Positions 20,000 to 62,800 of a stretch of 64,000 nt of DNA are shown here, piece by piece. Origin of the DNA: Saururus chinensis (taxonomy: Eukaryota > Streptophyta > Magnoliopsida > Piperales > Saururaceae). Below the pieces are notes generated by a model. It ran no database searches, had not been told where the DNA came from, and was given only the letters and a program-made list of their open reading frames with translations. Position numbers and translations under genes: made by a program. The stretch covers positions 788,501-852,500 of the forward strand of contig CP141143.1 of NCBI GenBank assembly GCA_035235625.1. The letters are read 5' to 3'. Position 1 is the stretch's first letter; each line of letters begins with the position of its first letter.

Positions 20000-22900
20000 A
20001 GTACAACCCCAGTGGGGGTAACTGATGTTCTTGTATAGTTAGCGTTCTAGTAGGTATATGTAGATAGATATACTAAAACATCCTCATGATATAGGTACAA
20101 GGAGGAATGACTTGATCGGACTGTTGAAGGATTGTGATTTGTAAAAAGTGAGGACGACTCCTTAATCAAGGTTTTGTTCTATCTATTGTTGGCATTTGTG
20201 GTGCCGGTTAATTTATACTTTATCCAGTTGTATCATATAATTATGCAAACTTACACTTTGGTGGGTCCTTGATCCATTCAAAATGCTTTGGCCGAACCTA
20301 CTATGAGTATGTACGATTTGATAATGCCATATGTTGGAAAAATAATGAACATGACTTAGGATTATTTTAAATCGAGTTTTAATTTTGGTTTCTGAGAAAA
20401 TTATATATTTTTTTGTATTCACTTTGATATCTCATATAATAAAACAAATTGAGTGACAATAGATTTATGTTAAACTTCTTATATTAACTTTACATTTTTT
20501 AATAATGTCTTTTAATATAAGTTTGATTTGGTATGTAATATAAAGGTATGTTAGTAAAATTATTTACTTAGATTCTTTTAGATGATTGTCACATATAACC
20601 TAATACCAGTTGTTTGGTATGCGATATGAGGGTTTGTTAGAACCCTATGCTGAGTTTAACTTTGTAAGGTTATAGCTTGCATCCCCGAGCTTGGATTTGC
20701 ACATTTTTTAAATAGTTGAAAAATTATTGTTGAGCTTTATCATATGAGATCTGCATGAGTATATTTTCTTAAATTTTTTTATGGGTCCTACAAATACAAC
20801 ATAGTTGTCAATTAGATAATTTTTGGCGAGCTCTACCAAGTGAGACTTGCTGCCAAACTGGTGATTAATATAAATGGTGTGTTCTACAATATGAAGTCCT
20901 TGAACACCATTATTTTTGCTTAATACAAATGTATATAGGTTAATATGATACTTATAATTATCTATGTGCACAATTTATAATCTTTATAATCCTAAAAGTG
21001 AATCTTATAACTATAACATAGAAAAAAGACCTTTATTTGATATATTTTTTATCTAATCTATAATTATATACATAATAATATGTATGTTATTGCTAGTACT
21101 ATGAAAAAATAGTTAAAAAACGTAAATTGTAATAGTAACCCTGTGAAGCAGAGTGACTTCCACACTACCCTCTACTTTACTCTTCTCCTCTTCTAGTAAA
21201 AGTTTCACTAATGATAGTTGCAAAGCAAAAAAAAATAATAATAAATAAAAGGGAGCAACAGGGAAGGAGTCATCGTCTCATTCAGGAGGGGGTCAATGCA
21301 TTGGGAGTGTGAAATCACTATGAAGCATTAAAGCTGAGGGTGAGAGGCATTAGGCAAACAGTGTGAATCCCCAGCCATTATAATTTATTTGTGGTAGCAA
21401 ACAGCTTTGTGTGGATAGGGAGCTTTGTGTGGATAGGGTTGACGTCGAACGTGGTCGCAAGTCTCGTCCCGGTCCCACGCGGACCTTACCTACCCTCCTT
21501 CTTTTTTCTTCTTCTAACAGCTATATATCATGAATAAAGAAAGATAGCAGTGGGTGAGCTGGTAACAAGTACAACTTTGGTAGAATTTGCCAAAAATAAA
21601 AAAATAGCAAGCTATATTTCTTCTACCAGTAAAATGAAACCATAAAATATAAAAATTTAGAAATAGTTGAGAAGCTCCTTAGAGATGGATTTATTAGCCT
21701 CCTCAATTAAAAAAAAGCCTGTTTGTAATTGGTGATCCGACAACACTAACGTTAATTTTAGGACGTTGTTATTTGGACGCAATTTTTGCTCATGTCCCCC
21801 CAAACCATAGTAATTGTATTGAATTCCTCACTTCCCCAAGTATCCCCTTAGAACCACTTGTTTACCCCACTTTCTCTCAATCTCACTTCTTTTTTCTCAA
21901 ACACCGGTGATGACCGTTGCCACCCTGCCCTGCCCTGCCCTTGGGGCATCTTTGTTGATCATTATTTAAATTTACCCCAATGTGGTGCTAGAGCGCCTTC
22001 ATGCTACCCACGTCCAAATTTATCTATGGGCAACTAAAAAAGCTAAAAGTGAGTGAGAAAGGCCGAGTGAAGTAGCCATTTTTGCCATCGTGGCTAAGAT
22101 TTGCCATGACGGCCCGGCAAATCTAGTATCCACCCAATCAAGGGTCATCACAGACGTCCATTTTTTAACTATTCTCAATAAATAGTAGGGTTTTTTCTTA
22201 TTTTAAAAAAAAATAGTGATATACTTATAATAAAGTTTTTTATTTTTTAATTAGATAGAACATGCAGGCCTCACATCAACTTTACTTGACCTTATATTTC
22301 TTTATCAATGTCCCTATACCACTTTCTGTTTATTTAATATTTTTTTTAATTAGGTTAAAAAAAGGAGTCTCACATAGACAACAAGAAGAGAATATTATTT
22401 ATTATGTGTAATTAAAATTTTATTAGATAATAAATAAAAAATCTTGTTTAGATGAGCTCGAGCTCATGTGTACGTTGAAGGTAACATCATGGGCAATAAG
22501 ATCAAAACCATATTACTTGGAAGAAAATTAATTTTGTTGCCTCTTCTAGATCTCGGTTTGATAGTTTATGATGTTCAAACTTAGTTAACGCGTGTGAGTT
22601 TAGACTTATATAATATATATATTTTTTAAATTAAAAAAAATTACTTTAAAAATTCAAACGCGGTTGGGAGGTTGTGTATGACGGATTCGTGGAAAGAGTG
22701 AACTTCAGGTGGGCCCCGCCCCGTTGGGCCTAGGAAATAGGAAGATGTCCAACTTTCTTTCCGCGTATACGTTTGCGTTAATGGGCAAATGGCGGAGACG
22801 AAACGCTGAAAAACAAAGGAAGAGGTAGTGGGAGATTAAAAGAGAGCAAGTCTTGGCTGTCGCCAGATTACCCTCTATAGTAAAGGAAGACAAAGAATAA

Positions 22901-23040
22901 TGCCCACCCTTTTGCCTCTTTTGAACCTCCTAACTAAAAGACAATAAGCTTTTATTTATTAATTTAGCTCCCAATGACTAAACACTTTCAGATGACCATA
23001 TCAACCATAAATATTAGTAATTTATAAAAATAAAAAAATT
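20000..23040. other. Far upstream region of GDPDL left copy, no gene
   Basis: AT-rich DNA without a credible reading frame. Bases 20000-22110 match 41071-44090 apart from a hAT insertion in the right copy. Bases 22115-22920 do not align well with the right copy, which instead carries transposon-like sequence at about 44180-44460. Close similarity resumes by 23041. Confidence 0.6.
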
Positions 23041-23937: not shown

Positions 23938-26900
23938 ATGAAGAAGATGAGCTCGCCGGAGGAGCGGCATTCCCATCTCCGGCTTAAATCCGGATGGAGG
24001 TGCATTCGATTCCTTCTCCTACTCTTCGTCTTCCACCCCCCTCTGGTTGCTTCTCAAGGATCCCGAAACACCACCTCCCCATGGCTCACTCTCACAGGTA
24101 TGCCCTTACCTTTTTTCCTCCTTCATTTTTTGTCCTTCTCTGCTCTCTTTCCTCTCTCTCTTCTTCCCCATCTTACTTACCATTTTTCACTTAGCTTCGG
24201 ATTTTTTTCCTCCCTTGGATTTGCGAACTTGCCGATTCGCCGCAATCTACAGATCTGCCTTGGTATCGCAAATCTGCTTTTTTTTTAAGAATTAGTTACC
24301 ACTTCCATTTAGCAAATAGGCACGAGGGTTAGTTTACTGTTAACGATGAGGCAGTCTACATGACAACCGGAAATTCTCTTCACCCCTTTACCAAGATAAA
24401 ATTTGTACTTGCATGCAAAAAATTGCTCAACTAGCCACTCAGCATGCTTTGAAAACCATTTACGTTTGGACCAAGTACTGGCAAAGAACTAGCATCTTAA
24501 TTGGACGGAGAAGAGCTAGATTCTGATGATGCCTTCTCCATCTTCGACCAATAAGCAAACGAATTGGATCGAGTACCTTTCAAATGACCATTCTCAGCTT
24601 TTCACTTGAAAATGTTCAACCTCGCATTTGACATGATAGTTTATTTCCTTGTGTCTAAAATGACCAGATGAAATACGTTAATTTTTATACGTCAAGAACC
24701 TACTTCATCATCTAAACACCGTTGATGAATAGGACCCACTTGTAGTTGATCTTTCCCATCTTTTCTGTTCATTATTCCTTCCGGTCATTATATCTAGCCT
24801 TTCCAGGATGACTAAATGCTTAGCTATCTTGCATTTGCCTTTCAGGTGATTCACCCGTTGTTATTGCTAGAGGTGGATTTTCAGGACTGTTTCCATCTTC
24901 AAGTTCAAGTGCATACCAATTGGCGCTGCTTACCAGTTTACCTGACGTAATTCTGTGGTGTGACGTACATTTGACAAAGGATGCGGCTGGAATATGTGCT
25001 CCAAGTTTAGAGCTACAGAATACTACAACTATTGATCAAATTTTTCCCCAGGGACAAACATTTTACCTCGTCAATGGGGTTCCAGTTCAGGGATGGTTTC
25101 CTGTTGACTACACTTTAAATGAGTTAGCAAATGTCACTTGTAAGCATACTTCTATAATCAGTACCTCTTTCTGGTTTTTCTTTCCTTTTTTCCATCATTG
25201 CCTTCGCATTTGCTGGAGGCATTAGGTGTGCTTATCAGTTCCTTTTCATACAATGCTTCTTTTGGATGGTGCATAAGACCATCAAGTTCATTTTTCTTCT
25301 GTAATGCTAATATTAAAATGTTGCTTTTGCAGCTTCTTATTCCAGTTTTTTTTTATGTTAAACAAATTTAATTAGTGCATTCGGCTTTTGAGCCTTCTTC
25401 CTTCTTTTCGGCGTTTCTCCATTGTTATAAGACAGTATACGGATCGAGAAGAGATTAACAAATTGACACAGTTAACTTTTCCAGTGGGCCTCTCCTTGAA
25501 ATGAAAGTGTTCTCATACTCTAATCTTCGAATTCAGGCTTTAGCTACTATTGTGCTTGCATAAATAAAATTTTGTTCTTCCGCCTGCATCTCTCTTTCTG
25601 CTTTCATTTTTTTAGAAGAAAATTTTTGTTATTCCGCCTTCATCTCTCTTTCTGCCTCCCTTTCTTTTTAAGACCCAGATTGTTTTCTAAACTTTGAGGT
25701 TGAAATATCTTGTCCCACAAATAAAAAATTGAAGTAGAAAACTCTGCCTTTCAAAAGCCTAAAATGTTTCATTTCACTTCAACTTAGTTTTAGTATGGAG
25801 GAAGCTTACTTTTCATCTATAACTTACGACCTACTTGTCTTTGATGGGTTACTTACAACCTACTAAATCAGAACTTCTCTGGTTCGTTCAGACCCTCCAG
25901 ATTAGTCAGGATTTACTTAGCTATTTCTGGAAAGTTGGTCGAGCCATTTCAGTTCTTCTGTTTAGGACGCTTAATAAGTCTCGTTTTCTTCTGCTACAAA
26001 TTTTCTGATTTTCTAGCAGCGTCCTGACAGCATTTTTTGGGTATTGTTGTTTCAGTAATTCAAAATTTATATTCTCGAACTGGCGTATTTGATGGAAACT
26101 TGTTTCCTCTCGAGACTGTTGAACAAGTGGCTCAGCAATTGAAGCCTGCAGGCTACTGGTTGAATATTCAGGTTAAGTAAAACATCCCCACATTGAAATC
26201 TGTGGAATTATTAAAAGTAGTGAGTCACACTATTGGATGATCCTGATATTTTTTATTATATGAGAAAGGAGATGGAAGGACGGCAGTAATTGTTGTAAAC
26301 AAAACCATCTACTGATTGTTATTCTTTTCTTTTAAACTTATTCTTCTTTATTTGCAGAATGATATCTTCTACACTGAACATAATCTGAGCATGCGAAGCT
26401 TTGTTCTGTCTGTATCGAGACGTGTTGTAATTAACTATATATCCTCCCCAGAAGTGGGTTTCTTGAGAAGTATTGCCGCTAGATTCAAACCTAGTACAAC
26501 AAAGCTGGTTTTTTGCTTTCTGGGATCTGAGGAGACCGAACCTTCAACAAATCAAACATATGGTTCCCTTCTAAATAATCTTACGTTTGTGAAGACTTTT
26601 GCTTCTGGGATCCTTGTCCCAAAAAATTACATCTGGCCCGTTAGGGATTTGTATCTGTTGCCTCATACTTCTCTTGTCTCTGATGCTCATAAAGAAGGGC
26701 TTAAAGTATACGCATCAGACTTTGCTAATGATGCCCTTTTTGCTTACAACTATAGTTATGACCCTGTGGCGGAGGTTTTGTCTTTTATTGACAATTCAGA
26801 GTTCTCTGTAGATGGTCTGTTGTCAGATTTCCCTCTAACAGCGTCAGAGGCCATAGGTACGATACTTTCTTTTTCTTCCATGGACAAATCTGAATTCTCT

Positions 26901-29900
26901 GTTGGTGGACAATGTCATTTTCTTGCCTTGAGATGGTTTTTTGGCATGCATTTCTCCTGTGGTGTGTTTTTAATTGGTTTAGTAAATCGCTTGATACCTG
27001 GTCTGAGGGAAATATGAAAGGTGGAGATGAGGTCCTTGTGGAAGGTTTTTAATAGGAATGCTGACTTCTCATTGTTTCTACAGGTTGTTTTGCTAATGGG
27101 AACAAGAACAGTTCTGAACAAGGTACAGTCCCACCATCCTATAATTAACATTGTCCTTATAATTCAAAACAATGGGCTTAAATTTGAGTAATTTTGTGTA
27201 TATTAATGATACATAAGTTTTGCCTTTTGTGTTGAGATACAGAAAAGCCGGTAATTATATCTTACAATGGAGCAAGTGGTTTCTACCCGGGTTCCACTGA
27301 TCTGGCATACCAGAAGGCAGTTAATGATGGAGCAGATATTATAGATTGCTCCGTTCAGATGACAGCAGATGGGATCCCTGTTTGCCTAAATTCCACTAAT
27401 CTTTTAGATGTCACAACAGTTGCATCATCATCATTCAGGTCGCGTTTGGTTAAGATTCCAGAGATCCAAAGTGCTGCTGGAATTTATTCTTTCGATCTTG
27501 CATGGGGGGATATCATAAATAATTTGAAACGTATGCAAAAAAATTTCCTTATCTTTTTGTCCCCATCCTTGAAGTAGCTTACTTTCCTTGAACGAAGTTT
27601 ATGTTAAAGTTGTTTTTTCTTTAATTGTTTTAGTTGGGGAAAAGTTCCTTTCTAGTGTTCTTAAGCTTGCTTGTTTGAAACCCTTGCGAAGATCATAAAA
27701 TATTGTGGGTATGCAAGACTAGTTCATTTCTACTTCAATAGAAGATAACTACAGCGATAGGACACTAAAGATCAAATGCATATGCATTAAGTACATTTGC
27801 TGAAAGTCTTCTTCCAGTTATGGAACAATATGTATATGATGTTCTTTGCAAGTGCAGTTGAACTGCGAATGCTCATCTCTTACTATTCTGGCTCAAATTA
27901 TAAAACATTCGTGGTGCTGGGGCCTGGGTATAAGGCTGATTATTTTTACTGTTTTACATGGTCTAAATTTTTTGGATTGACAGCATTATGCCTTTTATCT
28001 GTTCATTCTGCAGCTTTGATATCAACCCCATTTCCAGATTACAATTTGAAGCGCAACCCAGCATTTGCAAATGCTGGAAAATTCATGACATTATCTGATT
28101 TTCTAAAATTTGCAAAAGACCAGTCTGTTTCTGGGATATTGCTCAATATAGAGGTAAGCTCCAAGTCTTTCCTGTTCAAATATGCTCATAAGGAGATTGC
28201 TCTTTTAGGAAATACTATATGCAAGATCTGAACTTGTGATGGAGAAATGGCTGTTTGACCGCATCCCTTTGATTTGTGGAGATGATGCAGTTATTAACGA
28301 GCTTTGATGTTACATATCTGGTCATAAATTATGTGGGCGATTTCATTTGTATTAAGCTTTTTGTAGGGAGGTCATAAAGATTTTGATCATGTCTACGGGA
28401 AGGGCTAGAATGCATATCTGGCTATAAATTTAGAGTGGCTTGCTTGAAATGTAGTGGTAGTTTGGTGCTTTATAGTCAGTATGTCGTTGGATATGGAATG
28501 GGCATTTGCCACAAAGGCCAAGATGGTACAAGTGTGGATATGCAATCTCTTTGACACTCTGTTGAATGTACTATATTCATCAAACCAACGACACTCACAG
28601 AAGAATGGTAGATCAGAATCCTAGTTAAAAGCCTGCATTGCGATAACAAATTTTAATTGTCACATTAAGTATGATTGAATTAATGTAAAAGTATGGCAGA
28701 GAACAATTAGAACTCCTTAAAAGAATCAAATGGCTAGATATTGTTCTTCATGAACGAATTATTTCCACCATGAACTTGATGTAAATCAGGTACTGTAAAT
28801 TTTTCTCTCATAAAAATTGACAAGAATGAAGTGGCAAGATATTTAATACTGTCATTGGTAAGCATTTACCTACGTTGATATTGGCAAGTGGTATGTTCTT
28901 TTTCTTCTCTTTGTGGCGCAAAACATCTGCTGCCATTGATTTATCATAGAAGTGTTGCTGCTTTTACTTGATTTCCCCCCTTTCCCTGCAGCATGCAGCA
29001 TATCTTGCTGAGAAAAAAGGACTTGGCATTACCGATGCAGTTTTAAAAGCCTTAAATGATTCTGGTTTGGACAATCAAACAAGCTTAGCGATTACAATCC
29101 AGTCTACTGATAGTTCAGTTCTCACCAAGTTCAAGCAGCAAACTAAGTACAAGCTCATGTACAAGGTTCTTGAGACCATCCGGGATGCCAATAATTCAAC
29201 TGTTGAGGACATAAAGAAATTTGCAGATTCAGTTGCCATTAATAAGGACTCTATCTTTCCTGAAAATAGAGCCTTCCTGCTGGGAACCTCTGACACTGTG
29301 GACAAGTTGCATGCATTTGGCCTCTCGGTTTATGTTTACGTTCTCAGTAATGAGTTTGTTTCTCAACCATGGGACTTCTTTTCTGATCCAATTGTGGAGA
29401 TCAATGCATATTTCCAGGCGGCTGGGGTGGATGGTATTATCACAGATTTTCCTGGGACATCCAAAGCCTACAAGAGTAAGTATATTTTCTAAATTATTAA
29501 TGGCAATGAGATTTAGCAATTCTGGATGTTAGTGGTGTGCAATGTTCAAACTCTGAAAATTAAACAGATGGCAATGGTCTAGACGCCTTGACCCTTCAGC
29601 TGTCAGCTAGCACACAATCAGTCTTTTTACTGATTTGCGTTTGCTGGATGTTGTTACTAACAGGTGACATCTATGTAAGAGTGCATTTCAATCCTAGAGG
29701 GTGTGAAACAGTGTCTTATTCCTATTGCCAACATTCAACAAATACTTATTCCATAATGGTGCCCCATTTTCAAAACGTTAGAAATTATTTCATCATGTTG
29801 ATGTGTCTCCTAGTTTTATAGTGCTGAATCGTTTTGCAACTGGTGCAGGAAATTCATGTCTGAAGCTTGGCGACAAAGCACCAGCATTTATGAATCCTGT

Positions 29901-30144
29901 GCAAGCGGGAGCCCTGTTGCAGTTGGTCACTGCCGAGTCTTTGCCACCAGCAGCAGCTCCTTTGCCAGTTCTAACGGAATCTGATGTATTGGAGCCACCA
30001 TTACCCCCTGTTTCGCAGAGGCCAACAAATACAGGGGTATCTCCCCCTTCAAGCGGACAGCGACAAGCTACTGTCACAATGTGTTTATCTATTGTGATGC
30101 TCCTTTGGTCATCTATGCTTCTCTTAAGGCCCCTCATTCCATAG
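23938..30144 (+). CDS. GDPDL: GPI-anchored glycerophosphodiester phosphodiesterase-like protein, left copy
   Basis: Nine exons joined by GT-AG introns give an uninterrupted 771-residue frame: 23938-24097, 24846-25139, 26056-26171, 26358-26856, 27084-27122, 27243-27530, 28014-28153, 28992-29475, 29849-30144. Residues 23-38 are a hydrophobic signal segment. GDPD-like domain 1 begins with ARGGFSG (61-67) and domain 2 with ISYNGASG (375-382). Domain 2 also holds the [11 protein letters not shown] block after a TDLAYQKAV block. A Pro/Ser-rich stretch leads to a hydrophobic tail (about 748-771), typical of a GPI signal. Many N-glycosylation sites are visible. This is the layout and length of the Arabidopsis SHV3/GDPDL family (about 750 aa), extracellular GPI proteins needed for cell-wall cellulose organisation and root-hair growth; their enzymatic activity is debated. 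The histidine of the classical GDPD HRG motif is Ala in domain 1 and Tyr in domain 2. The start was chosen as the in-frame Met just upstream of the signal segment. Confidence 0.93.
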
Positions 30145-31931: not shown

Positions 31932-34106
31932 CTACCAGGTACCAAAGCTGCGGCTTACAGTTTCTTGAGTAATAAGACTAAGGCGGTCCTGCATGACAGA
32001 CATTGAAGTGTAGGGAGGAAGACACAGGCGATAGAAACAAGTGCGAGATGAAGGCAGGCGGTCCACTGAGCCTACATCCTCGAAGATGCACAATTTTGAA
32101 CCTAAGCCTCGAAAGCCCTCGAAGGGCAAATAGTTAACGGCTGTCCAAAAATACAGCAGTATTCTTTTCTGATCTGAGGACATATTCTCCACAGTCTGCA
32201 AACGTACAGAATAATTAGACGGGAAGTATTTGCCCATGATCAAACATAAAAAATGCCAAATTCAAAATCATAAAACTCCTGTCCTTGTAGAAAGCGTTTT
32301 ATTCAACAGTCACTCTAGAGGACGGAAAAATATAAACTCCTCCCACATAGGGCAGCCGATGAAAGAAAAAATGTTTTAAAATGCACAATAAGCATGAAAA
32401 ATACTGCCTCCACACTAAAAAATTTTATGCAAAAAAATTTGCAAAATTTGCCAGATGTCCTGGAAGTCAGTTAGGTCAGTCCACACTAATAGTACGACTG
32501 TTTTGATTGCTTCCATAGACTTCAAAGGACTGACATCATTATAAACGAGACAAGAATAAAAAGAGAGTTGCTGATGCCAGGTATAAGAGTTATTTGCTAA
32601 AAGAGATTTAAGGATGAGGGTTATAATTGCAAGAAACACAAGACAAAATAAAAGAAAAGGATTACTAGTAGACATTAGATCGAAATAACAAAAGTTTGTC
32701 CAAAAATTTTGTAACTTCATTCCTGCATAGAATAAAGAAAGGAACAATCATCATATAAACCTGCAATCGACTCAAAATCTCCTATTTGGATTCCACCACA
32801 ACTAATGCCGATGCCTTGAATAAAGACGAAAACATAAAAAGATCTTGTGCTTTTAATTTTTAGTTCTATCCAAGATATCAGTTTGGTTTCTACTTTATAT
32901 AACCTACTTTAAAATCATAATAGAACTTAGAAGAAAAAAGTACATAACATATCATCTTGAACGCAAATTAGATCAAACCCAGAAACTCCAAAGTTTTCCT
33001 AAAAAAAGTGACAAAAAGTCCCAAGGGTTTCTCTCACAACTCTATAAATTTAACAACGTTCACATTTTATAGCTTCCTTTAGATATGCTGGTATTGCAGT
33101 AAGTCTTTCACCAGACCTACTAGCCGACAGTTAAGCTGAACATAATCTACTCATAAGAAACTACTCCTAAATCAATTACAAAGAAAATACTAGAAAACCA
33201 AATAAATAATACAAAATAGCTACACTATTCATGGTACCGATCACACATCATATAGACAAGCTTCTAACACTAGTTTGTACTTAAAGTTGCATAATTCAAT
33301 GGCACAAAAGGGAAAATTCGGATAAAGAACTAATTTGCATCACTAGATCAAACAAAAAATACAATTTTCATCAAATATAAGAGCAAAATTAAGTAAAAGT
33401 TTACTACAGAACCCCAGGAACAAAGTGATATGACATTTGTTTTAAGAAAAATGATCGGCAAAGCTCGGTTTTACTTCTCACCACTTTTCAGAAATTAAAT
33501 TCAAATGGTTACTTACCTTCCAGAACCACTGAATCTGGCAATCAGTCCACTCATAGCCATTGTATTCAGTATGTGCTATCCATTCCTTCACGCAAATAAC
33601 TTTGTCACTTCCATACAACATAGTATCAAAATCTTCAAGATCCAAACTTTGAAAGAATAGCTTCTGAAGTTTTGTACCACTGAGGATATCACTAAACCCT
33701 TGAATAAAACGGCTAATCTGGTCGGAAACAGATGTGACAAAACGATGCTCAATAAGAAGATTCACATAGTGTTCTCTGTTCCTGCTATCAACAGAAATGC
33801 CCTCGCCTCCGGGACATAGCTCCACAACCCTGTGAGATCCAAGTTCTTCAATCTCTCTAACAAATGTAAGGCCCAAAGCATCTGAATCCACAAACGCTGC
33901 ATCATAGTCTAATATCTCTTTGCAACTTCCATATAAAACAGGGTCAGCATCCTGAATATCATTTAAAGCAATGCTGTTCCCTGATAATTGTAGAAAAAAT
34001 ACGCGGTCGAACATGATGCCCACTTGCACTCTGTGCATCAGAGCTAATGCAATAATTCTACCAGAGAAGCCAAAATAATCAAGATGCAAGGGATTTACTC
34101 CTGAAG
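31932..34106 (-). pseudogene. UPL5: Headless UPL5-type HECT ubiquitin ligase fragment, left copy
   Basis: Two exons on the minus strand, 34106-33517 and 32195-31932, encode the last 284 residues or so of a HECT domain in open frame with intact splice signals. They match the right copy almost exactly. The preceding exon, carrying the start of the HECT domain (63669 onward in the right copy), is absent: upstream of 34106 come intron sequence, the LINE and then the next duplication unit. Without the N-terminal half and the HECT N-lobe start it cannot make a normal ligase. The conserved C-lobe loop, S-H-T-C-F in the right copy, reads S-R-T-C-F here (Arg codon 32043-32045, Cys codon 32037-32039). 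The reading frame is otherwise open, consistent with recent origin, so a truncated or antisense transcript is possible. Called a pseudogene by inference. Confidence 0.85.
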
Positions 34107-35370
34107 CTGCAACAACATAGAAGAAGTGTCACTTGTATGCAAACGACTCATACTAATCTGATGTTTTGCATATGCACTACTTATTTTTGTCTGTAGCTGT
34201 GAACAAGGTGCAGAAAAACAAATTTCTGAACAATGTAATTTTGAAAAACGTGATAGAATGTGTGCATGTGTTTACATGACTAAAAGGTGCCAAAGTACCA
34301 TAAAGCAAATTATTTGCCGCCACACCAAAGAGTTGTTCTTTTTTTGTCATCAAGCATTTGGTCATAAAATAAAAGTTTAAAACCTCATAGCTTTTAAACA
34401 AATTCTAGGAAGCAACGTAAAAATGGTGCTATAAGACTTCAATCTTACCTTTTGAGGCACATGCTACATGAGAAAATTAAATAAAAAATAGACAAAGAAA
34501 GGGCAGAGTTTTCTAACCAGGTCAACCTACTTTATTGCACAACTCATTCAAGCAGAGTTCCTTATCACTCCAAAGCCAGGAGGGAACATCTTATTTGGGC
34601 TCATGATCAGCCCTTTGTGTGTCAATTAAAAACAAAGAGTTACATTTTTTCCTTGAAAAAATTGGTTGTTACTGAACTACTTGCCAAAAGAAGAACAGAA
34701 GGTTAAACAAAATAAGTTGTCATTAACTACATATGAAGACAGAAATCTAACACTAACTTTAAAAGTTTGAATTGGATAAATATACCCTTTCTTCATAATC
34801 TAATTTTCAAAACCCACTACCCACCTTCCCTGTCTTCTACCTCCTCCTCCACTGCTGGAGACCAGGCCTTGGCCGGCGGTGGCGACAGTCAAGAGAAAAA
34901 AAATTTAACCCCTAAACTAAACCTAGTAGGGATATTCGAACCCTAGGGCCAGGTCTCCGGCAACCTGACATCGTCCAAGGGGGCAACGGCTCTGTCCAAA
35001 AGAACAAAAACTTAGGACTTAAAGGGCATTCCAAAAACATGTTAAGAGTCATAACAAAAAAAAGTCAGCCGAACAGAGCAGATGCCAGATTTGTCACAAA
35101 ACAAAGGCAACAGTTGCTATAAAACGTAAAGTTATGCTAACACAATCCCATTACATAAAGATAAAAAAGGATTCTGCTACTCAAAAAATCGTTTCTGATT
35201 ATAAGAAACTGATGATCTCACTCTTATGTTTTTTCTCACATATGTTGAATTTCTCCCTTTCCTCACTTTCAACATGCAGGCCAACAACCGTAATCAAAAA
35301 CTTGCTTAAAGAACAACATGCATAAAAACATTATAATCATAATCAAGAAGGGCTTTGCCTAAACTCACGA
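34107..35370. other. UPL5 intron remnant, left copy
   Basis: It matches 56066-57060 of the right copy until about 34960, with about 150 bp missing near 34490. From about 34960 to 35370 it is unlike the right copy, which has 57075-57719 there instead. No gene recognised. Confidence 0.6.
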
Positions 35371-48800: not shown

Positions 48801-51800
48801 TTCTCTGTTGGTGCACAACGCCATTTTCTTGCCTTGAGATGGTTTTTTGGCATGCATTTCTCCTGTGATGTGTTTTTAATTGGTTTAGTAAATCACTTGA
48901 TACCTGGTCTGAGGGAAATATGAAAGGTGGAGATGAGGTCCTTGTGGAAGGTTTTTTAATAGGAATGCTGACTTCTCATTGTTTCTACAGGTTGTTTTGC
49001 TAATGGGAACAAGAACAGTTCTGAACAAGGTACAGTCCCACCATCCTATAATTAACATTGTCCTTATAATTCAAAACAATGGGCTTAAATTTGAGTAATT
49101 TTGTGTATATTAATGATACATAAGTTTTGCCTTTTGTGTTGAGATACAGAAAAGCCGGTAATTATATCTTACAATGGAGCAAGTGGTTTCTACCCGGGTT
49201 CCACTGATCTGGCATACCAGAAGGCAGTTAATGATGGAGCAGATATTATAGATTGCTCCGTTCAGATGACAGCAGATGGGATCCCTGTTTGCCTAAATTC
49301 CACTAATCTTTTAGATGTCACAACAGTTGCATCATCATCATTCAGGTCGCGTTTGGTTAAGATTCCAGAGATCCAAAGTGCTGCTGGAATTTATTCTTTC
49401 GATCTTACATGGGGGGATATCATAAATAATTTGAAACGTATGCAAAAAAATTTCCTTATCTTTTTGTCCCCATCCTTGAAGTAGCTTACTTTCCTTGAAC
49501 GAAGTTTATGTTAAAGTTGTTTTTTCTTTAATTGTTTTAGTTGGGGAAAAGTTCCTTTCTAGTGTTCTTAAGCTTGCTTGTTTGAAACCCTTGCGAAGAT
49601 CATAAAATATTGTGGGTATGCAAGACTAGTTCATTTCTACTTCAATAGAAGATAACTACAGCGATAGGACACTAAAGATCAAATGCATATGCAATAAGTA
49701 CATTTGCTGAAAGTCTTCTTCCAGTTATGGAACAATATGTATATGATGTTCTTTGCAAGTGCAGTTGAACTGCGAATGCTCATCTCTTACTATTCTGGCT
49801 CAAATTATAAAACATTCGTGGTGCTGGGGCCTGGGTATAAGGCTGATTATTTTTACTGTTTTACATGGTCTAAATTTTTTGGATTGACAGCATTATGCCT
49901 TTTATCTGTTCATTCTGCAGCTTTGATATCAACCCCATTTCCAGATTACAATTTGAAGCGCAACCCAGCATTTGCAAATGCTGGAAAATTCATGACATTA
50001 TCTGATTTTCTAAAATTTGCAAAAGACCAGTCTGTTTCTGGGATATTGCTCAATATAGAGGTAAGCTCCAAGTCTTTCCTGTTCAAATATGCTCATAAGG
50101 AGATTGCTCTTTTAGGAAATACTATATGCAAGATCTGAACTTGTGATGGAGAAATGGCTGTTTGACCGCATCCCTTTGATTTGTGGAGATGATGCAGTTA
50201 TTAACGAGCTTTGATGTTACATATCTGGTCATAAATTATGTGGGCGATTTCATTTGTATTAAGCTTTTTGTTGGGAGGTCATAAAGATTTTGATCATGTC
50301 TACGGGAAGGGCTAGAATGCATATCTGGCTATAAATTTAGAGTGGCTTGCTTGAAATGTAGTGGTAGTTTGGTGCTTTATAGTCAGTATGTCGTTGGATA
50401 TGGAATGGGCATTTGCCACAAAGGCCAAGATGGTACAAGTGTGGATATGCAATCTCTTTGACACTCTGTTGAATGTACTATATTCATCAAACCAACGACA
50501 CTCACAGAAGAATGGTAGATCAGAATCCTAGTTAAAAGCCTGCATTGCGATAACAAATTTTAATTGTCACATTAAGTATGATTGAATTAATGTAAAAGTA
50601 TGGCAGAGAACAATTAGAACTCCTTAAAAGAATCAAATGGCTAGATATTGTTCTTCATGAACGAATTATTTCCACCATGAACTTGATGTAAATCGGGTAC
50701 TGTAAATTTTTCTCTCATAAAAATTGACAAGAATGAAGTGGCAAGATATTTAATACTGTCATTTGTAAGCATTTACCTACGTTGATATTGGCAAGTGGTA
50801 TGTTCTTTTTCTTCTCTTTGTGGCGCAAAACATCTGCTGCCATTGATTTATCATAGAAGTGTTGCTGCTTTTACTTGATTTCCCCCCTTTCCCTGCAGCA
50901 TGCAGCATATCTTGCTGAGAAACGAGGACTTGGCATTACCGACGCAGTTTTAAAAGCCTTAAATGATTCTGGTTTGGACAATCAAACAAGCTTAGCGATT
51001 ACAATCCAGTCTACTGATAGTTCAGTTCTCACCAAGTTCAAGCAGCAAACTAAGTACAAGCTCATGTACAAGGTTCTTGAGACCATCCGGGATGCCAATA
51101 ATTCAACTGTTGAGGACATAAAGAAATTTGCAGATTCAGTTGCCATTAATAAGGACTCTATCTTTCCTGAAAATAGAGCCTTCCTGCTGGGAACCTCTGA
51201 CACTGTGAACAAGTTGCATGCATTTGGCCTCTCGGTTTATGTTTACGTTCTCAATAATGAGTTTGTTTCTCAACCATGGGACTTCTTTTCTGATCCAATT
51301 GTGGAGATCAATGCATATTTCCAGGCGGCTGGGGTGGATGGTATTATCACAGATTTTCCTGGGACATCCAAAGCCTACAAGAGTAAGTATATTTTCTAAA
51401 TTATTAATGGCAATGAGATTTAGCAATTCTGTTACTTGGACACGTGGCTGGATGTTAGTGGTGTGCAATGTTCAAACTCTGAAAAGTAAACAGATGGCAA
51501 TGGTCTAGACGCCTTGACCCTTCAGCTGTCAGCTAGCACACAATCAGTCTTTTTACTGATTTGCATTTGCTGGATGTTACTAACAGGTGACATCTATGTA
51601 AAAGTGCATTTCAATCCAAGAGGGTGTGAAACAGTGTCTTATTCCAATTGCCAACATTCAACAAATACTTATTCCATAATGGTGGCCCATTTTCAAAACG
51701 TTAGAAATTATTTCATCATGTTGATGTGTCACCTAGTTTTTTAGTGCTGAATCGTTTTGCATCTGGTGCAGGAAATTCATGTCTGAAGCTTGGCAACAAA

Positions 51801-52085
51801 GCACCAGCATTTATGAATCCTGTGCAAGCGGGAGCCCTGTTGCAGTTGGTCGCTGCTGAGTCTTTGCCACCAGCAGCAGCTCCTTTGCCAGTTCTAACGG
51901 AATCTGATGTATTGGAGCCACCATTACCTCCTGTTTCGCAGAGGCCAACAAACACAGGGGTATCTACTGCACCAACGACATCTCCCCCTTCAAGCGGACA
52001 GCAACAAGCTACTGTCACAATGTGTTTATCTATTGTGATGCTCTTTTGGTCATCTATGCTTCTCTTAAGGCCCCTCATTCCATAG
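45839..52085 (+). CDS. GDPDL: GPI-anchored glycerophosphodiester phosphodiesterase-like protein, right copy
   Basis: Nine exons with the same junctions as the left copy: 45839-45998, 46747-47040, 47959-48074, 48264-48762, 48991-49029, 49150-49437, 49921-50060, 50899-51382, 51772-52085. They give 777 residues. Signal segment, two GDPD-like domains ([15 protein letters not shown]), Pro/Ser-rich linker and hydrophobic GPI tail are all intact. It differs from the left copy at about 20 residues and by six extra residues (TAPTTS) in the linker. Exon 2 and the short exon 3 carry a cluster of replacements: Ala-Ala to Thr-Thr, Ile to Asn, Thr-Phe to Lys-Ser, Leu to Phe, then Gly-Val to Asp-Lys and Gly to Arg. 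Both copies look functional. Predicted role: extracellular cell-wall protein of the SHV3/GDPDL family. Confidence 0.93.
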
Positions 52086-53891
52086 GGGAGCGAGCTGTTG
52101 TTGTCATTAGACCTGATCTTCATGAATGCACATTTATGATTTGGCGGTTTTTTATTCAATTGGATGTTATCATTTTTTTTATTTTGTTGTAGTTGTTAAT
52201 ATGTCCGGCCATTTTGAGAACATGAAATTCCTGTAAACTTTATTCAACTTGTATGGATTACTTGTAGATGTGAGGGACGTGGTATTGTGTTTGGTTGAAG
52301 CCTGTAAACAAAGCAAAATACTACCAGTCTGGCATTAATGGTTTCATTTATTTTTTAAAATAAATTAAAATTCGTTAATTTTGAAAAGCAAAATTTTAAT
52401 TTATTTTTAAAAATTAAATGGGGTTATTAATGTGGGCAGAGGGATTATCTCGTATGGAACCTTTTGAGGATAACCCCTGATATCTGGGGGGGAGGGCGAA
52501 CATCACAAGGAAGAACTGGGGGTGCGCCAGAACTACCGTGGTAGGACAATATAGTGATTGTACTGTATGACTTGAGGCCAGCAGGCGACCCCTAAAACTT
52601 TTATCCCTAAATATATTCACTAAATTATCTCTACAAACTAAATAGATAAGTAAAAAATAGAATAAGCTTAAAGGGCACAATTATCGATTACCCATTGTTG
52701 CGACTATTTATCACATGTTAGTAAAAAGGTCACTGATGCTAGAGAAGGAGGCTCCATATTCTCGTCTGTGAACTCTTCCGACACTGAAACCCCTTTTATA
52801 AACACGTGACAACTAACAAATAGAAATTCTCCTTTAGAAGCCCTGCTGTCAAGTACTTCACTGCCATCACCCTGAGCTCTTCACATTGGATCTTCCTCAC
52901 CCAAATGCCACCTATTTTGTCATTGTTACATGATTGTGTACACTTCTTCTATTCCATATTAAATGCCCTATTTAATTTTTTTAAAATATAATAATTTTAA
53001 TTCAATTTAAAAAATAAACCAAATACTTAACCTAGGATGGAGGGAGTGTACACCTTCATTGCAATCATGAAAATTTGCCAATTTTCCCATTAAATTCTCT
53101 ATCTTATGGCGACAAAAAATAATTCACATGGGGTACACGCTAAGCATCTCTCTCAACTTGGCCTTGATCAGGCCATCTGTGTGTGGGACACAAGATGTAA
53201 TGACGGAGGTAGGGCAGCTGTCTGGACCATTCGGTGGTGGCGGGCAAACACGAAGCCGCTCAACATTGAACTATGAAGCAGAGGACGAGTTTGGGAAGAT
53301 AAGGAAGAAAGCCTGAATTTTTTTAATGCCTTTTCTTCTGTCTCGGAGTTCACCGATAAAGGTAAGTGTGGAAAAGAAGGCTCTCTCCGTTCATATAAAA
53401 AATTTACAGAAACTGCCTGTGTACGCACACGTGAAATGCAACACTGGAGTGAGTCCACAGCGAGCGGCCTTCAATGAGTGACCGTAGCATTTCTCACTCA
53501 GGAAATGGTTCTCCGAGTGGCATTTCTCACTCAGGAAATGGTTCTCCGTGTGGCATCCCGAATGAGTGACCGTAGCCTGGTAGATGATTTCATGCCTGTC
53601 ATTATATTATCAAGTGGTCATCTGCCCCCTTCAAATGCTAACCCTCTCAGCACAATCCTCTTAATGCAAAGTCATAAAATTGAAACTTTCCGTCTACTAG
53701 ATAGTTAGGTACTGATGGTTGATTCATTTCTATAAATAAAACGAAATTTTTTTTTGGGTAAAACTATAATAAAGGGATTTTAAGATAGATAAACTGCGGC
53801 ATCCCACTTTGTGGTGTTTAATTGGAACATCTGTACACGAGAGTAAGTACTCTCGTCAAGATCATGGACCACTTTTTTGGTTTTCATTTTG
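52086..53891. other. Convergent intergenic region, right copy
   Basis: Holds the GDPDL and UPL5 3' ends. It differs from the left copy by small indels, including a short direct repeat at about 53494-53560 (ATTTCTCACTCAGGAAATGG twice) and about 20 extra bases near 53345. No gene recognised. Confidence 0.6.
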
Positions 53892-56800
53892 CTACCAGGT
53901 ACCAAAGCTGCGGCTTACAGTTTCTTGAGTAATAAGACTAAGGCGGTCCTGCATGACAGACATTGAAGTGTACGGAGGAAGACACAGGCGATAGAAACAA
54001 GTGTGAGATGAAGGCAGGCGGTCCACTGAGCCCACATCCTTGAAGATGCACAATTTTGAACCTAAGCCTCGAAAGCCCTCGAAGGGCAAATAGTTAACGG
54101 CTGTCCAAAAATACAGCAGTATTCTTTTCTGATCTGAGGACATATTCTCCACAGTCTGCAAACGTACAGAATAATTAGACGGGAAGTATTTGCCCATGAT
54201 CAAACATAAAAAATGCCAAATTCAAAATCATAAAACTCCTGTCCTTGTAGAAAGCGTTTTATTCAACAGTCACTCTAGAGGACGGAAAAATATAAACTCC
54301 TCCCACATAGGGCAGCCGATGAAAGAAAAAATGTTTTAAAATGCACAATAAGCATGAAAAATACTGCCTCCACACTAAAAAATTTTATGCAAAAAAATTT
54401 GCAAAATTTGCCAGATGTCCTGGAAGTCAGTTAGGTCAGTCCACACTAATAGTACGACTGTTTTGATTGCTTCCATAGACTTCAAAGGACTGACATCATT
54501 ATAAACGAGACAAGAATAAAAAGAGAGTTGCTGATGCCAGGTATAAGAGTTATTTGCTAAAAGAGATTTAAGGATGAGGGTTATAATTGCAAGAAACACA
54601 AGAAAAAATAAAAGAAAAGGATTACTAGTAGACATTAGATCGAAATAACAAAAGTTTGTCCAAAAATTTTGTAACTTCATTCCTGCATAGAATAAAGAAA
54701 GGAACAATCGTCATATAAATCTGCAATCGACTCAAAATCTCCTATTTGGATTCCACCACAACTAATGTCGATGCCTTGAATAAAGACGAAAACATAAAAA
54801 GATCTTGTGCTTTTAATTTTTAGTTCCATCCAAGATATCAGTTTGGTTTCTACTTTATATAACCTACTTTAAAATCATAATAGAACTTAGAAGAAAAAAG
54901 TACATAACATATCATCTTGAAGGCAAATTAGATCAAACCCAGAAACTCCAAAGTTTTCCCAAAAAAAGTGACAAAAAGTCCCAAGGGTTTCTCTCACAAC
55001 ACTATAAATTTAACAACGTCACATTTTATAGCTTCCTTTAGATATGCTGGTATTGCAGTAAGTCTTTCACCAGACCTACTAGCCGACAGTTAAGCTGAAC
55101 ATAATCTACTCATAAGAAACTACTCCTAAATCAATTACAAAGAAAATACTAGAAAACCAAATAAATAATACAAAATAGCTACACTATTCATGGTACCCAT
55201 CACATATCATATAGACAAGCTTCTAACACTAGTTTGTACTTAAAGTTGCATAATTCAATGGCACAAAAGGGAAAATTCTGATAAAGAACTAATTTGCATC
55301 ACTAGATCAAACAAAAAATACAATTTTCATCAAATATAAGAGCAAAATTAAGTAAAAGTTTACTACAGAACCCCAGGAACAAAGTGATATGACATTTGTT
55401 TTAAGAAAAATGATCGGCAAAGCTCAGTTTTACTTCTCACCACTTTTCAGAAATTAAATTCAAATGGTTACTTACCTTCCAGAACCACTGAATCTGGCAA
55501 TCAGTCCACTCATAGCCATTGTATTCAGTATGTGCTATCCATTCCTTCACGCAAATAACTTTGTCACTTCCATACAACATAGTATCAAAATCTTCAAGAT
55601 CCAAACTTTGAAAGAATAGCTTCTGAAGTTTTGTACCACTGAGGATATCACTAAACCCTTGAATAAAACGGCTAATCTGGTCGGAAACAGATGTGACAAA
55701 ACGATGCTCAATAAGAAGATTCACATAGTGTTCTCTGTTCCTGCTATCAACAGAAATGCCCTCGCCTCCCGGGCATAGCTCCACAACCCTGTGAGATCCA
55801 AGTTCTTCAATCTCTCTAACAAATGTAAGGCCCAAAGCATCTGAATCCACAAACGCTGCATCATAGTCTAATATCTCTTTACAACTTCTATATAAAACAG
55901 GGTCAGCATCCTGAATATCATTTAAAGCAATGCTGTTCCCTGATAATTGTAGAAAAAATACGCGGTCGAACATGATGCCCACTTGCACTCTGTGCATCAG
56001 AGCTAATGCAATAATTCTACCAGAGAAGCCAAAATAATCAAGATGCAAGGGATTTACTCCTGAAGCTGCAACAACATAGAAGAAGTGTCACTTGTATGCA
56101 AACGACTCATACTAATCTGATGTTTTGCATATGCACTACTTATTTTTGTCTGTAGCTGTGAACAAGGTGCAGAAAAACAAATTTCTGAACAATGTAATTT
56201 TGAAAAACATGATAGAATATGTACATGTGTTTACATGAATAAAAGGTGCCAAAGTACCATAAAGCAAATTATTTTCCGCCACACCAAAGAGTTGTTCTTT
56301 TTATGTCATCAAGCATTTGGTCATAAAATAAAAGTTTAAAACCTCATAGGTTTTAAACAAAGTCTAGGAAGCAACGTAAAAATGGTGCTATAAGACTTCA
56401 ATCTTACCTTTTGAGGCACGTGCTACATGAGAAAATTAAATAAAAGATAGACAGAAAAAAAATATTCAAATAGATAAGCTGCCGGTTTAAAAGAGTCTTC
56501 GGACATTTTTCACATATATTTTGTCAGCATCTCATATAGATTTTGACCATAAACTATGGGATGAGTCAAACAAAGGCAACCTAGTCTTTAAAGTCGGCCA
56601 CCCTCTGCCCAGAGTTTTCTAACCAGGTCAGCCTACTTTATCGCACAACTCATTCAAGCAAAGTTCCTCATCACTCCAAAGCCAGGAGGGAACATCTTAT
56701 TTGGGCTCATGGTCAGCCCTTTGTGTGTCAAGTAAAAACAAAAAGTTACATTTTTTCCTTAAAAAAATTGGTTGTTACTGAACTACTTGCCAAAAGAAGA

Positions 56801-59800
56801 ACAGAAGGTTAAACAAAATAAGTTGTCATTAACTACACATGAAGACAGAAATCTAACACTAACTTTAAAAGTTTGAATTGGATAAATATACCCTTTCTTC
56901 ATAATCTAATTTTCAAAACCCACTACCCGCCTTCCCTGTTTTCTCCCTCCTCCTGCCCTCAACTCCTCCACTGCTGGCTACCAGGCCTTGGCTGGCAGTG
57001 GCGACAGTCAAGAGAAAAATAATTTAACCCATAAACTAAACCTAGTAGGGATATTAGAACCCTAGGGCCAGGCCTCCACTCCAACCCTCTAACCTTATCT
57101 GCATGGTTTGCCATCTCAGTCTTGATGCCAATCTAAGTCCAACCGAAAATAGGAGATCTCATCTCATAGGATCAAGAAAGTGATGTCAATGATGAGGAAT
57201 TCTTCTTAATCGTGTCTAAAATTAACATGTACGTAATAAAATCTAATCCAAAGTAAAAACTTCTTGGAAATGACAATTTAACCTCCACAAAACAAAATAA
57301 TATCATCCAATTTAATTTCAAACTTTTATGGTTTGGTTTTTATTTATTATGAATGGGCCTTTGGGCCAGGTAAGAGGTACCCTAGGCCAGACCCGGTTCC
57401 AAGTAAAGACCGGGTGACAGGGGAGCCACCCCTTCCTAGTGCAGGAAAGTATCCCAAATAGGGACTCCTTCGCCAAGAAGGAAGGAGCCCCTCCCCTTGG
57501 TGTCGCCACCCTCCCTCCCCTTCCTCTATTTATCCCTCAGCAGCTCCAACCCTCTTCACTGACTACAACATCTATCTTCTTCTTCTCTCTTCCCTCAATA
57601 GAAATGACTCTGTCCTTCTAGCCTTTCAAGCAGTCCCTCTCTCACCTCTTCTTTTCTACCCTATCTTATTCTCCAGAACCTACCCTTTGCAGTGTTACTG
57701 TAGCAGATCAGTAACCGCGAGATGCATTAGGGTGTTCTAATTCCTATTTCTTCATGATATATTGTTTTCCATTGATTTTATAGAAATTACTCTGCCATTG
57801 TGTCTTGCAATGCTGGTCCTAAAGCCCAGATAAAAGAAGGTTGCATCAGTTTGACAACCGGCTGCAAAAACTTTTGTCAATCTCCATGGATCTTACACCA
57901 CATATTCAAGTTAGAGCTGGGGCGTTTCCCATTAACGTGTTGTGCCAAAACCCGAATGCAACGTTAAATGGGCCAAGGTTGGTTACAACATCCTCCCGAA
58001 GTGACATGTTGCAACAGTGCCCTACTACAATGAGAGGTGTGCAAGGGTTCTTGGTTGGAATGGTAAAATGTGGGTAAAGATGCTAGTCCAGGAGTGTAGG
58101 ATTAGAGTAGCAACTTGGAACATTGGGAACTTAAAAGGTAAGGTTATGGAGTTAGTGTAAACTCTTAGGCGAATAAGGATTAATATAGCTTGCTTGTAGG
58201 AGATAAAGGTTGCAGTAGAGAAGGCTAGGGAGCTAGGTGCGGGTTTTAAACCATTTTATGTAGGTAAAGAGTCAAATAAAAATGGGATAGCTATAGTGGT
58301 CAACAAGGAGTCGAGGGAAAACTTTGTAGGTGTCGAATAGGATTACGAACCTTAAGAAGCAATTTAAGGAGGAAATAGACATAGTAATACAAGGGATACC
58401 TAGTTGGGAAATGTTATATAAGGGAAGATTTATAAGGGCATGTAGTCAAGAAGAACATAGGATTTGAGAGGGTACTGGTTTTGGGGAGAGAAATAAGATG
58501 GGCGAAGTTATCCTTAAGTTTTCAATAGCAAATGAAAGGCATTGCACATACTTTAAGAAGAGGGAGGAGTATTTAGGAACCTTCAAGAGTGGGCCTAATA
58601 AGAGCCAAGTAGATTTTATCTTAGAAGTAAGGATAGAAGCACTTGCAGAGATTGTGAAGTTATTTCTAGGAAAACCTTTAACACTACAACATAGATTCAT
58701 TGTTTTACATGTACGCATGAAGGGATGGAGGAAGCAAAACGATACGGATGAACCTAGGATCAAGTGGTAGAACTTGAAGGATGAAATACTCAACCTATGT
58801 GGAGAGATTGAGGGTGGAAGGAAAATGAAAGTTGATTGACAAACCAACAACAATGTGGGATAACATGACTAATTGCATCAAAAAGTTAGAAAATGAAGAG
58901 GTTAAGGAAGTGAGGAGGAGAAAGGGCTTAAAGATGGAAACATGGTGGTGGTCCGAGGCAATCCAAAGAGTCATTAGGGAAAAGAAAAGTTTAATCTAAG
59001 GAGTGGCAAAAATTTAAAAGAAGGAAGAGTTGGGGAGAGGTATATTAAAGTTAGTAGAGAGGCTAAAAAAGTAGTGAGTGATAAGTAAAGCTGGATTTAA
59101 GGCAATTGATAACTTGTAGAATAGATTAGGAACGCAGGAGGGGGAGAGGAACATATATAAGATAGCTAGGTTAAAAAAAAGAAAGTAGGGACTTAGATCA
59201 AGTTAGGTACATTAAGAGTGAAAATCAAAGGGTTTTAGCAAACAATGAGGTTATTAAGTAGAGATGGAGAGGGTATTTCAAGCATTTATTGAATGGTCAT
59301 GAAATTGAGTATAGTCCTATTAGGGATATGACCTATTTTAGAAGATTTACCGTAGAAGAGGTTGGAGTTGTAGCCTTACAAAAGATGAGGAAAGATAAAA
59401 TACTAAGACATAATGGAATTCTTATTCAATCATGGAAGTGTCTTGGGGGTGTTGGCTTAACTTGGTTGACCATGTTGTTTAACAATATTTGGAAGTTAAA
59501 GAGGATGTCAAAGAAGTGGAAGAGAAGCATCATTCTACCTTTATATAAGAGTAAAAAGGATAGAAAAGATAAAACACTAAGACATAATGGAATTCTTATT
59601 GAATTATAGAAGTGTCTTGGGGGTGTTGGCTTAACTTGGTTGACCATGTTGTTTAACAATATTTGGAAGTTAAAGAGGATGTCAAAGAAGTGGAGGATAT
59701 CCTTTTATCCAATGTTGTACAAACTATAGGTATAAAACTTATGAGTCATACTATGAAGTTATGAAAGAGAGTGGTCAAATGACATTCACAGATAAAAACT

Positions 59801-62800
59801 AAAAATTAATTTGGTTTTATGCCAAAGAGCTCAACAATTGAGGCTATCTTCCTCTTACGACAATTGAGGCTATTTTCCTCTTATGGATGAATTAACTCTA
59901 CACGTACAAGATAGGGTACCTTAGTGTATGTTTTTTGCATATGATGTTGTTTTAGTTGACAAGACAAAATTAGGGTTAAATGTCAAACTAGAATTATGGA
60001 GGGAAGCTCTAGATCAAAATGTTTTAAAATAAGGACTAAAACTATATAGATTTTAAATTTAAGATAGGCAGAACCCTAGTTAAAATAGATGGGCAAGAAG
60101 TGTCAAGATGTGAATAATTTCTATATTTAATCTCCATTATCCATAAAGAGGGAGATATTGATATTGATAGTGATGTGGTACATAGGATAAATGCATATTG
60201 AGTACAATGGAGGGCAGTGTTGGGAGTATTATATGATAAATGTATTCTAAATAGGTTTAAAAACAAGTTCTACAGGACGACTATTAGGCCTGCAATATTT
60301 ATTGATTAGAATGTTGGCCCCAAGGAAAAGAGTTACATAGATGAATTGAATGTAGTTGAAATGGGGATGCTAAGGTAGATGTGTGGGACAACTAAAAGAG
60401 ATAGAATTAGAAATGAGTATATACATAAGAACTTTGGGATTGTACTTTTAGAGGAGAAGCTTAAGAAGTGTAAGTTGTGTTGGTACAGACATGTACAAAG
60501 AAGACCAATAGATGTACCGGTAAGAAGGTCGCAAGGGATTCATACAAATGATGTAAAAAAAGGGAGACATAAACCTAAGACAACTTCGTTAGAGTTAATA
60601 AGAAGAGATAATTGTACTATCTCTTACGAAAGAATTAACACAATACACAATAATAAAAGCATAAAAGCCATGTTGCCGACCTCAAATTGATGCAAAAGGC
60701 ACCATTTTATTATGGTTATGACTGATTTTCTAGCAGTCCCTTCAACTCCCATTCATTTGAAACCACATTTTGTCCCTGCATCAAATTCACAGCAATCTGA
60801 TTGGAGCCTTGATTTCATTAGCAGTCTCTAAGGAGGGGAGTGGGTTAGCAAGTAGTAAGGTCAGGATTTTTTTTTCTGATGTCGACCTTGCTGTGGAAGC
60901 AAGGTTTGGAGTGTATTCAATACCCAGAAAGGGTGGGGATTCTTTAATAGTTATTTATTGATTTAAGGACTGGTTTTGAGGGATAACGGTGGTGTTTTTC
61001 CTGTAGGATTCAAAGAGGATTTCTTGAACCTATGACCTTGAATGCATAGGCAAAGGTGAGGACGCTCTTGTAACCATGCTGGATTAATTAATTTGATGAT
61101 TGTGTGAACCGATTGATAAACCAAAATTCGTAATGTATGTTTGATGCAGTTACTATCTTATTGGATGTCACTGAATTGTAGAAAAGCTGAGTTTTTATTT
61201 ATTTGAAATGCTCACAAAGGTTCCAATGCAGGTTGAAACAGTGTACTGTTTGAATGAAGTGCAAGGAAGTAGTTTATTAGTTCAGTGTTTTATAAGTATC
61301 TGGTGGTTATGGTGAATGTTGGGTTAGCTGTCTTAATATATGGGAATCTGTGGATTATATTTCTTATACCTTAAGGCTATTGTGAGGATTGAATTGATAA
61401 GATATATTTGGTTTCTTTCATTTATTTTAGATGCTCACAGATGGACTGTTGTTAGCAGAACAGAGTTCTATTTGGTATTTAATGCAGGGCTGAGTTCACC
61501 ACAAGTTTGTACTGCACATGTTATGTACATCATGATTAATTTATTTAATTGCATCCTTATGATGGTGTATGATAGGTATGACTGAGATAATTTGTAGCGG
61601 ATGTGCAGTTGTCAAGGTGGATCTGCAACTATTATGATAATATTTTGATTCCTTCCTATGAATTTACTATGAATAAGAGGCAAGTTAATTTTACATCTTG
61701 TGGGATTTACATATCTGCTGCCGGATTCAAATCAAGTGGCACTGTAGCAAATAGGGGGCAGACTAAGATGCACCCGGGTGCATCTCAAACTAAATCTTAT
61801 ATATGTGTGTGTGTAGGTTGAGAGACATCAATGCCATATGAATATACCCTTTTCTATTTGTCCATCTGTTAAAATTACCTACTCTTAGATAATGAGATGT
61901 TTTATGATGGATAATATAAATTATTGAAAAGTATTGAACAGGGCATCATAGGTAAACTGAGTCGTATAGGTTGAATTTTTATTGATCTAATGAAAGGATG
62001 CTGATATAGTGTTTTGAGCAGGTTGCAAATAATAGATGCTATGGCTCTGTCATTACTATGGGATTTGTGTCCTAACAATCTGTTTAAACAGCACGTGCAT
62101 GAGCAGCATGACCTCTTGGGTTTTGGGGTAAGCGTATTATTTTTATCTATCTCGTGGGCAGATGAGAGAGGTATTTTTGCATAAACGGTAGATCAGGTAA
62201 CAAGTGGTAACCAAAGTCTAGGGAGGTAATGAGTAAGGTTAACTAAGGAAAGGCGTTGTGATGAGTGTTTGCAACACAAGGTTTAAAATGAAAATTCCTC
62301 TGATGCTACCTCTATTGGGATGAGGATGGGACCCACGCATTGTCCCAACTCCCAATGCCCTCCGGGATCCTCCATCATGGTCACACCAAGTGCAAGTGCT
62401 TGACCAACCTAGAGTGCTCTTGCATTAGTGCTTTCCATGTCAAACTAGATTAGCTACCTCTCTGTGAGGAGTGACTTAGGCATATTGGCAGTTAATGAAT
62501 ATTGTTGTATTACGATTAGTCAATTAAACGCTAGTCTGTACTAAGGCATTTATTTAGGTTTTTAATAAAAATGAATTGCTTGTGCATTGGATTAAAACGT
62601 GACTCATTTCTTCTATGTATGCTCTATGATTCCTTTTTTGTATTTTATTTAGGCATAATCAAAGAGCTGTAAAGCTCGCTCCGTTCCACCGGGTGTATTT
62701 TTGCATGCAAGTATGTTTAAAATCCTGGATGAATAGGAATGCTGAGTTGGAGAGAGACACCACTCATGGGGAAAATTGGAGAGCTAGGATACTTAGATTT

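Follow-up and report, generated by a model that had tools for sequence, protein, structure and literature searches.

In a 64,000-nucleotide stretch of the Saururus chinensis genome (assembly GCA_035235625.1, contig CP141143.1, positions 788,501 to 852,500 of the forward strand; hereafter the window, numbered from its first letter), a segment of about 20 kb carrying a GDPDL gene and the 3' part of a UPL5 gene is present twice. The locus raises the question of how this duplication arose, and of whether the elements now found at its edges, a long interspersed nuclear element (LINE) at the right end and a 216-bp spacer between the copies, record the event that formed it. The analysis covered one assembly and the two copies, A and B, at the level of sequence. 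The duplication is real. Its present edges probably arose later than the original breakpoints and do not mark them, the likely explanation being a tandem duplication whose edges would have been remodelled by the insertion of a long terminal repeat (LTR) element and by a break at the tail of the LINE.

Layout of the duplicated stretch

Self-BLAST and alignment placed copy A at 20000-40854 and copy B, which runs on into the remainder of UPL5, at 41071-60721, both on the plus strand. These are two neighbouring, direct, co-linear copies that match well above chance. The first-pass annotation had proposed a tandem duplication of about 20 kb and named self-alignment as a check, and the duplication was confirmed by it. 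The matching blocks (A/B) were 20000-21558/41071-42604 (90.6% identity), 21549-22121/43529-44101 (87.5%), 22329-22477/44520-44670 (79.9%), a core of 11.7 kb at 22933-34500/44812-56459 (97.1%), 34504-34958/56610-57077 (92.9%), 35371-36169/57720-58570 (86.6%), 38837-39836/58567-59562 (93.9%) and 39652-40854/59552-60721 (91.0%).

The copies had been described as co-linear from 20000/41071 to about 40854/60722. These ends are exact to the base or nearly so, but the run between them is broken by an insertion found only in copy B (42605-43528), by one found only in copy A inside the LINE (36170-38836) and by poor or absent alignment at about 22122-22932/44102-44811 and 34959-35370/57078-57719. In the latter pair, the B stretch contains a dispersed repeat of about 222 bp (57102-57323) and a further 5' part of the LINE, and the A stretch is mostly sequence without other copies. 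The copies are separated by 216 bp (40855-41070) and hence are not adjacent. The 924-bp insertion in copy B has a GGGCCGGC-like end and a 10-bp direct repeat, AGTAGGTGAG.

The LINE at the right edge

A decayed LINE on the plus strand closes both copies. In copy A it occupies 35371-40854, where its 3' terminus forms the right edge of the duplication; in copy B it occupies 57639-60726. We take it to be an RTE-like element from its motifs; a Pfam search of the decayed copies gave no LINE domain. A genome search with 59900-60900 (516 Mb in 11 contigs; 40 of 940 candidates scored) returned 42 rows, namely, the window's own sequence, copy A with 93% identity and, among the matches scored, 40 others at 69-77%. 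The 3' terminus of the family was defined by 21 of these 40 other rows, which ended at query positions 820-823 (window 60719-60722); the remaining rows ended earlier, except for one at query position 825 (window 60724). The right edge of the duplication therefore lies within a few base pairs of the LINE 3' terminus, as originally noted. A BLAST comparison of the LINE with twenty 10-kb genome samples (200 kb) gave no match at an E value of 1e-5.

The much higher identity between the A and B elements than to the other rows indicates that the LINE was already in place before the duplication, which therefore did not coincide with its insertion. Up to its end, the copy A element is like that of copy B (query 6-822 in the alignment) and thus does not have the look of a hybrid with another LINE. 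The copy B element is flanked by a likely target-site duplication matching at 14 of 15 bp (57624-57638 and 60727-60741), which suggests that the right flank of copy B is original; 12 of 3,000 random pairs were as good (P = 0.004, tested after the repeat had been spotted). The same test for copy A gave 11 of 15.

The two elements diverge by 6.4%. Counted over all three forward frames, they share 192 stop codons, with 31 more found only in A and 22 only in B, and in the frame that carries the apparent C-terminal LINE motifs the stops fall, by eye, at the same three places in both copies. A shift in divergence along the LINE was considered as the mark of a crossover and rejected, because the sole change point (10.7% and then 5.5%; 1 of 200 permutations as good) lies in the 5' part and not toward the 3' end. 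The A-only insertion in the LINE (36170-38836) is about 2.7 kb long, runs from TG to CA and has GAGT on both sides, and a 175-bp tandem duplication (59377-59697) is present only in the LINE of copy B.

The left edge and repeat E

At the left edge, copy A is continuous across position 20000 through a dispersed repeat, here called repeat E (19901-20400, plus strand), which in copy B is present only from 41071 on. A genome search with 19880-20100 found five places. Besides the query and copy B, which matched from the equivalent of 20000 on, there were three, each of which crossed the 20000 boundary (80%, 76% and 69% identity); when fetched and aligned, these three matched the left flank of copy A (19901-19999) and not the spacer. 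This indicates that repeat E is intact in copy A and only partly present in copy B.

The sequence just left of copy A also resembles the 3' end of the LINE. For 19899-19999, none of 300 shuffles was as good against the B element and 3 of 300 against the A element; none of 1,500 genome windows was as good in either scoring, and when the stretch was extended to 20060, 2 of 1,500 were as good in one scoring. This likeness appears to be better explained by repeat E. Farther left, 6651-10227 and 14933-18649 form a long inverted repeat with arms 79-81% identical, in a transposon block that extends rightward to about 19898.

The spacer, a probable LTR remnant

The 216-bp spacer, J (40855-41070, plus strand), matched at least 39 other places in the genome at 91-93% identity (40 of 859 candidates scored), and 36 of the 39 matches covered positions 1-215 or 1-216. 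Four copies, taken with about 300 bp of flanking sequence to either side, were compared, and all four aligned. Past ...GCCCAACA, to the right of the end of J, three of the four share an internal region, and one ends as J does. To the left, homology between pairs of copies extends about 85 to 195 bases beyond the start of J, where the window has the LINE; in two copies, C7 and C10, it reaches a TGTGAGAC start. Because of the TG...CA ends and the internal region common to three of the four copies, we read J as the 3' part of an LTR of about 410 bp, cut on the left and with its outer end at 41070/41071. J is thus a member of a family of LTR-like repeats and stops at the terminus of that family.

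Both joints of the spacer could be described. At 40854/40855, the interior of the LTR is joined to the LINE tail, with about 4 bp (ATGA) common to both. At 41070/41071, the LTR end is joined to the middle of repeat E. Integration of an LTR element would be marked by a 5-bp target-site duplication; the left side is lost in copy B, and copy A shows the site unbroken. J carries private changes in 7 of 215 columns (3.3%), compared with 0, 2, 2 and 8 in the four other copies. This is about half of the A-B divergence of the LINE (6.4%) and of the left flank (6.5%) and, as a rough estimate from four copies, is compatible with an LTR about as old as the split of A and B.

Other identities for J were rejected. 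A housekeeping promoter, considered for its GCCCA and ACCCTA motifs, was dropped once J was seen to be an LTR. As UPL5 intron or ancestral left flank, J gave no match above chance, and the left flank of copy A is the unbroken one. The idea that J once flanked a LINE since lost from the left side, with recombination between two LINEs, had been suggested by the LINE-like stretch left of copy A and was dropped after the genome searches with the LINE and repeat E.

GDPDL and UPL5 genes

The GDPDL gene was doubled whole, as previously proposed. Splice-site models gave nine exons and eight GT-AG introns in each copy, with open frames of 771 amino acids in copy A (23938-30144, plus strand) and 777 in copy B (45839-52085, plus strand); the copy A protein contains two GDPD stretches (Pfam, E = 1.6e-37). 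The copies differ by 23 nonsynonymous and 12 synonymous changes, with a nonsynonymous divergence (dN) of 0.013 and a synonymous divergence (dS) of 0.022, a difference in rate that was not significant (Fisher P = 0.16). In codons 100-165 (24983-26094), nine of the ten codon differences are nonsynonymous. The last exon of copy B (51772-52085) has six codons more than that of copy A.

UPL5 has three exons on the minus strand. The gene model placed exons 2 and 3 of the complete gene at 53892-56065 in copy B (exon 2, 56065-55476; exon 3, 54155-53892). The exon encoding the HECT N-lobe terminates near 63667 and is continuous with exon 1, whose end (63667-64000, minus strand) extends past the window; a ubiquitin domain lies just beyond (E = 5.9e-16). 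The right edge of the duplication is thus inside the long UPL5 intron, in agreement with the first-pass annotation. Copy A has exons 2 and 3 without exon 1 (31932-34106, minus strand; gene model, with HECT matches at 34206-33502 and 32198-32004). A second genomic copy of the last 111 amino acids of exon 1 was not found, the other match being only 32% identical (3 candidates scored), which indicates that copy B holds the real end of UPL5 and copy A only a truncated tail. The two tails differ by five synonymous and three nonsynonymous changes. One of these three gives copy A an R in the SHTCF motif where copy B has H; among five relatives aligned at this position, S occurs in one and H in the other four, three of which are RSP5. 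The earlier view that only the tail of UPL5 was doubled holds for the present state, since copy A has just the 3' part, but the original duplication may have been longer and its junction sequence lost.

Patchy divergence between the copies

Divergence between A and B is uneven along the duplicated stretch. The core diverges by 1.56% (180 of 11,519 sites), the two blocks to its left by 5.9% and 8.3%, the left flank by 6.5% and the next intron block by 4.4%. Within the core, divergence was 0.3% upstream of GDPDL, 0.95% in the GDPDL introns and 1.5% in its coding sequence, 4.2% between the genes, 0.9% over UPL5 exons 2 and 3 with their intron and 3.0% in the adjoining long intron. The longest identical run in the core is 1,264 bp, compared with a maximum of 876 bp in 2,000 permutations of the core. 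Introns are as alike as exons, which argues against selection as the cause of the identity. For the two sequences compared, the patchy identity would fit gene conversion or mixed haplotypes.

Origin of the present edges

The explanation that we consider likely would begin with a tandem duplication that doubled GDPDL together with the 3' part of UPL5 or more of that gene. An LTR element would have entered repeat E in the present copy B, and an illegitimate break, aided by the approximately 4 bp of ATGA, would then have joined the LINE tail of copy A to the LTR. This break might have been a deletion after the duplication that took away the original junction, in which case the duplication was once longer. 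Alternatively, the break might itself be the junction made by the duplication, from two parent chromosomes of which only one carried the LTR insertion. Later gene conversion, or haplotype mixing, would have kept the gene-bearing core alike while the flanks and the LINE diverged. The original extent may have been larger than today's. An extreme form of the deletion, in which the original duplication spanned the whole of UPL5 and a single deletion at the LINE tail removed both exon 1 of the A gene and the first junction, is a minor possibility. If it is true, GDPDL-A was freed from a convergent UPL5 transcript, and gene conversion is maintaining the likeness of a UPL5 tail that lacks exon 1 (0.9% divergence across exons 2 and 3 with their intron).

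Several points weigh against remodelled edges followed by homogenization of the core. The LTR has no target-site copy on its left, and the break within a few base pairs of the LINE terminus is treated partly as chance. A later deletion and a junction of unlike chromosomes are not separated by the evidence. The intergenic DNA (4.2%) and the intron at the right end of the core (3.0% and 4.4%) are less alike than the genes, the patchy identity of two sequences is no proof of gene conversion, and the failure of 34959-35370 to align with 57078-57719 lies outside this explanation.

The LINE-associated break put forward in the first-pass annotation is very unlikely as the origin, whether as recombination between two LINEs or as a break linked to LINE activity. 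The closeness of the right edge to the LINE 3' end and the LINE-like stretch left of copy A, which few or no shuffles and genome windows equalled, would be expected from it. However, that stretch is part of repeat E, matched at 69-80% across the boundary, and the partner of the LINE at the junction is an LTR and not a LINE. Non-allelic homologous recombination would call for homologous LINEs flanking the unit and for a hybrid element at the junction; the left end lies in repeat E, and the copy A element is B-like to its end, with no hybrid seen. A rearrangement linked to LINE insertion would make the two events of the same age, and the 93% identity between A and B, compared with 69-77% to the 40 other rows, indicates that the LINE was already old. 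Its end may have supplied just the approximately 4 bp of microhomology. Replication template switching, also suggested earlier, would account for the short microhomology and the foreign insert at the junction by a single step in which 216 bp of LTR were copied as filler from one of its many genomic copies. It leaves to chance that the filler ends at the LTR terminus, which integration explains, and for this reason it is ranked lower and considered rather unlikely.

An assembly artefact in which two haplotypes of a heterozygous plant were set in series would also produce patchy identity and differing insertions, and repeats lie on both sides of the joint. False duplications made up 4 to 16% of the sequence in older assemblies of three vertebrates, according to one study (PMC9516828). 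At this locus, no N occurs within 123,600 bp around, and the joint of LINE tail and LTR interior, which share about 4 bp, would not represent an assembler-type overlap. The end of UPL5 exon 1 is single copy, and among the scored rows none but the window's own extends past LINE query position 825; any second haplotype would therefore be there only in part. The R for H in the SHTCF motif of copy A is as expected of a truncated copy, although one change is weak evidence. Considering these features of the sequence, misassembly seems unlikely.

Comparison with known systems

If the favoured order of events holds, what is seen at the edges of an old tandem duplication can date from transposons that inserted and were lost after the event, and a mechanism named from the element at an edge can mislead. 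The locus could also serve as a small natural test of gene conversion, with two linked genes about 99% alike and the DNA between and around them drifted by 3-8%. A search of open-access listings found no literature on the locus itself.

The event is of a known kind. As in other plant tandem segmental duplications formed by unequal exchange or end joining, the copies are direct, with one gene whole and one truncated at the edge; here, an LTR end and a LINE tail form the visible edges, which may differ from the breakpoints of the original event. LTR elements in plants are truncated by illegitimate recombination, and the spacer similarly is an LTR remnant cut at a short microhomology; it differs in that its cut end meets a LINE tail, where the two copies of a tandem duplication join. 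The false heterotype duplications described in PMC9516828 share the near-identical, side-by-side copies and patchy divergence, but were marked there by gaps between the copies and haploid-level depth, whereas no N gap is present here. Reversed-ends transposition of maize Ac likewise yields tandem direct duplications linked to a transposon; those described in PMC3744419 have class II ends and 8-bp target-site duplications at the junction, in contrast to the LTR spacer found here, where no separate scan for class II ends was made.

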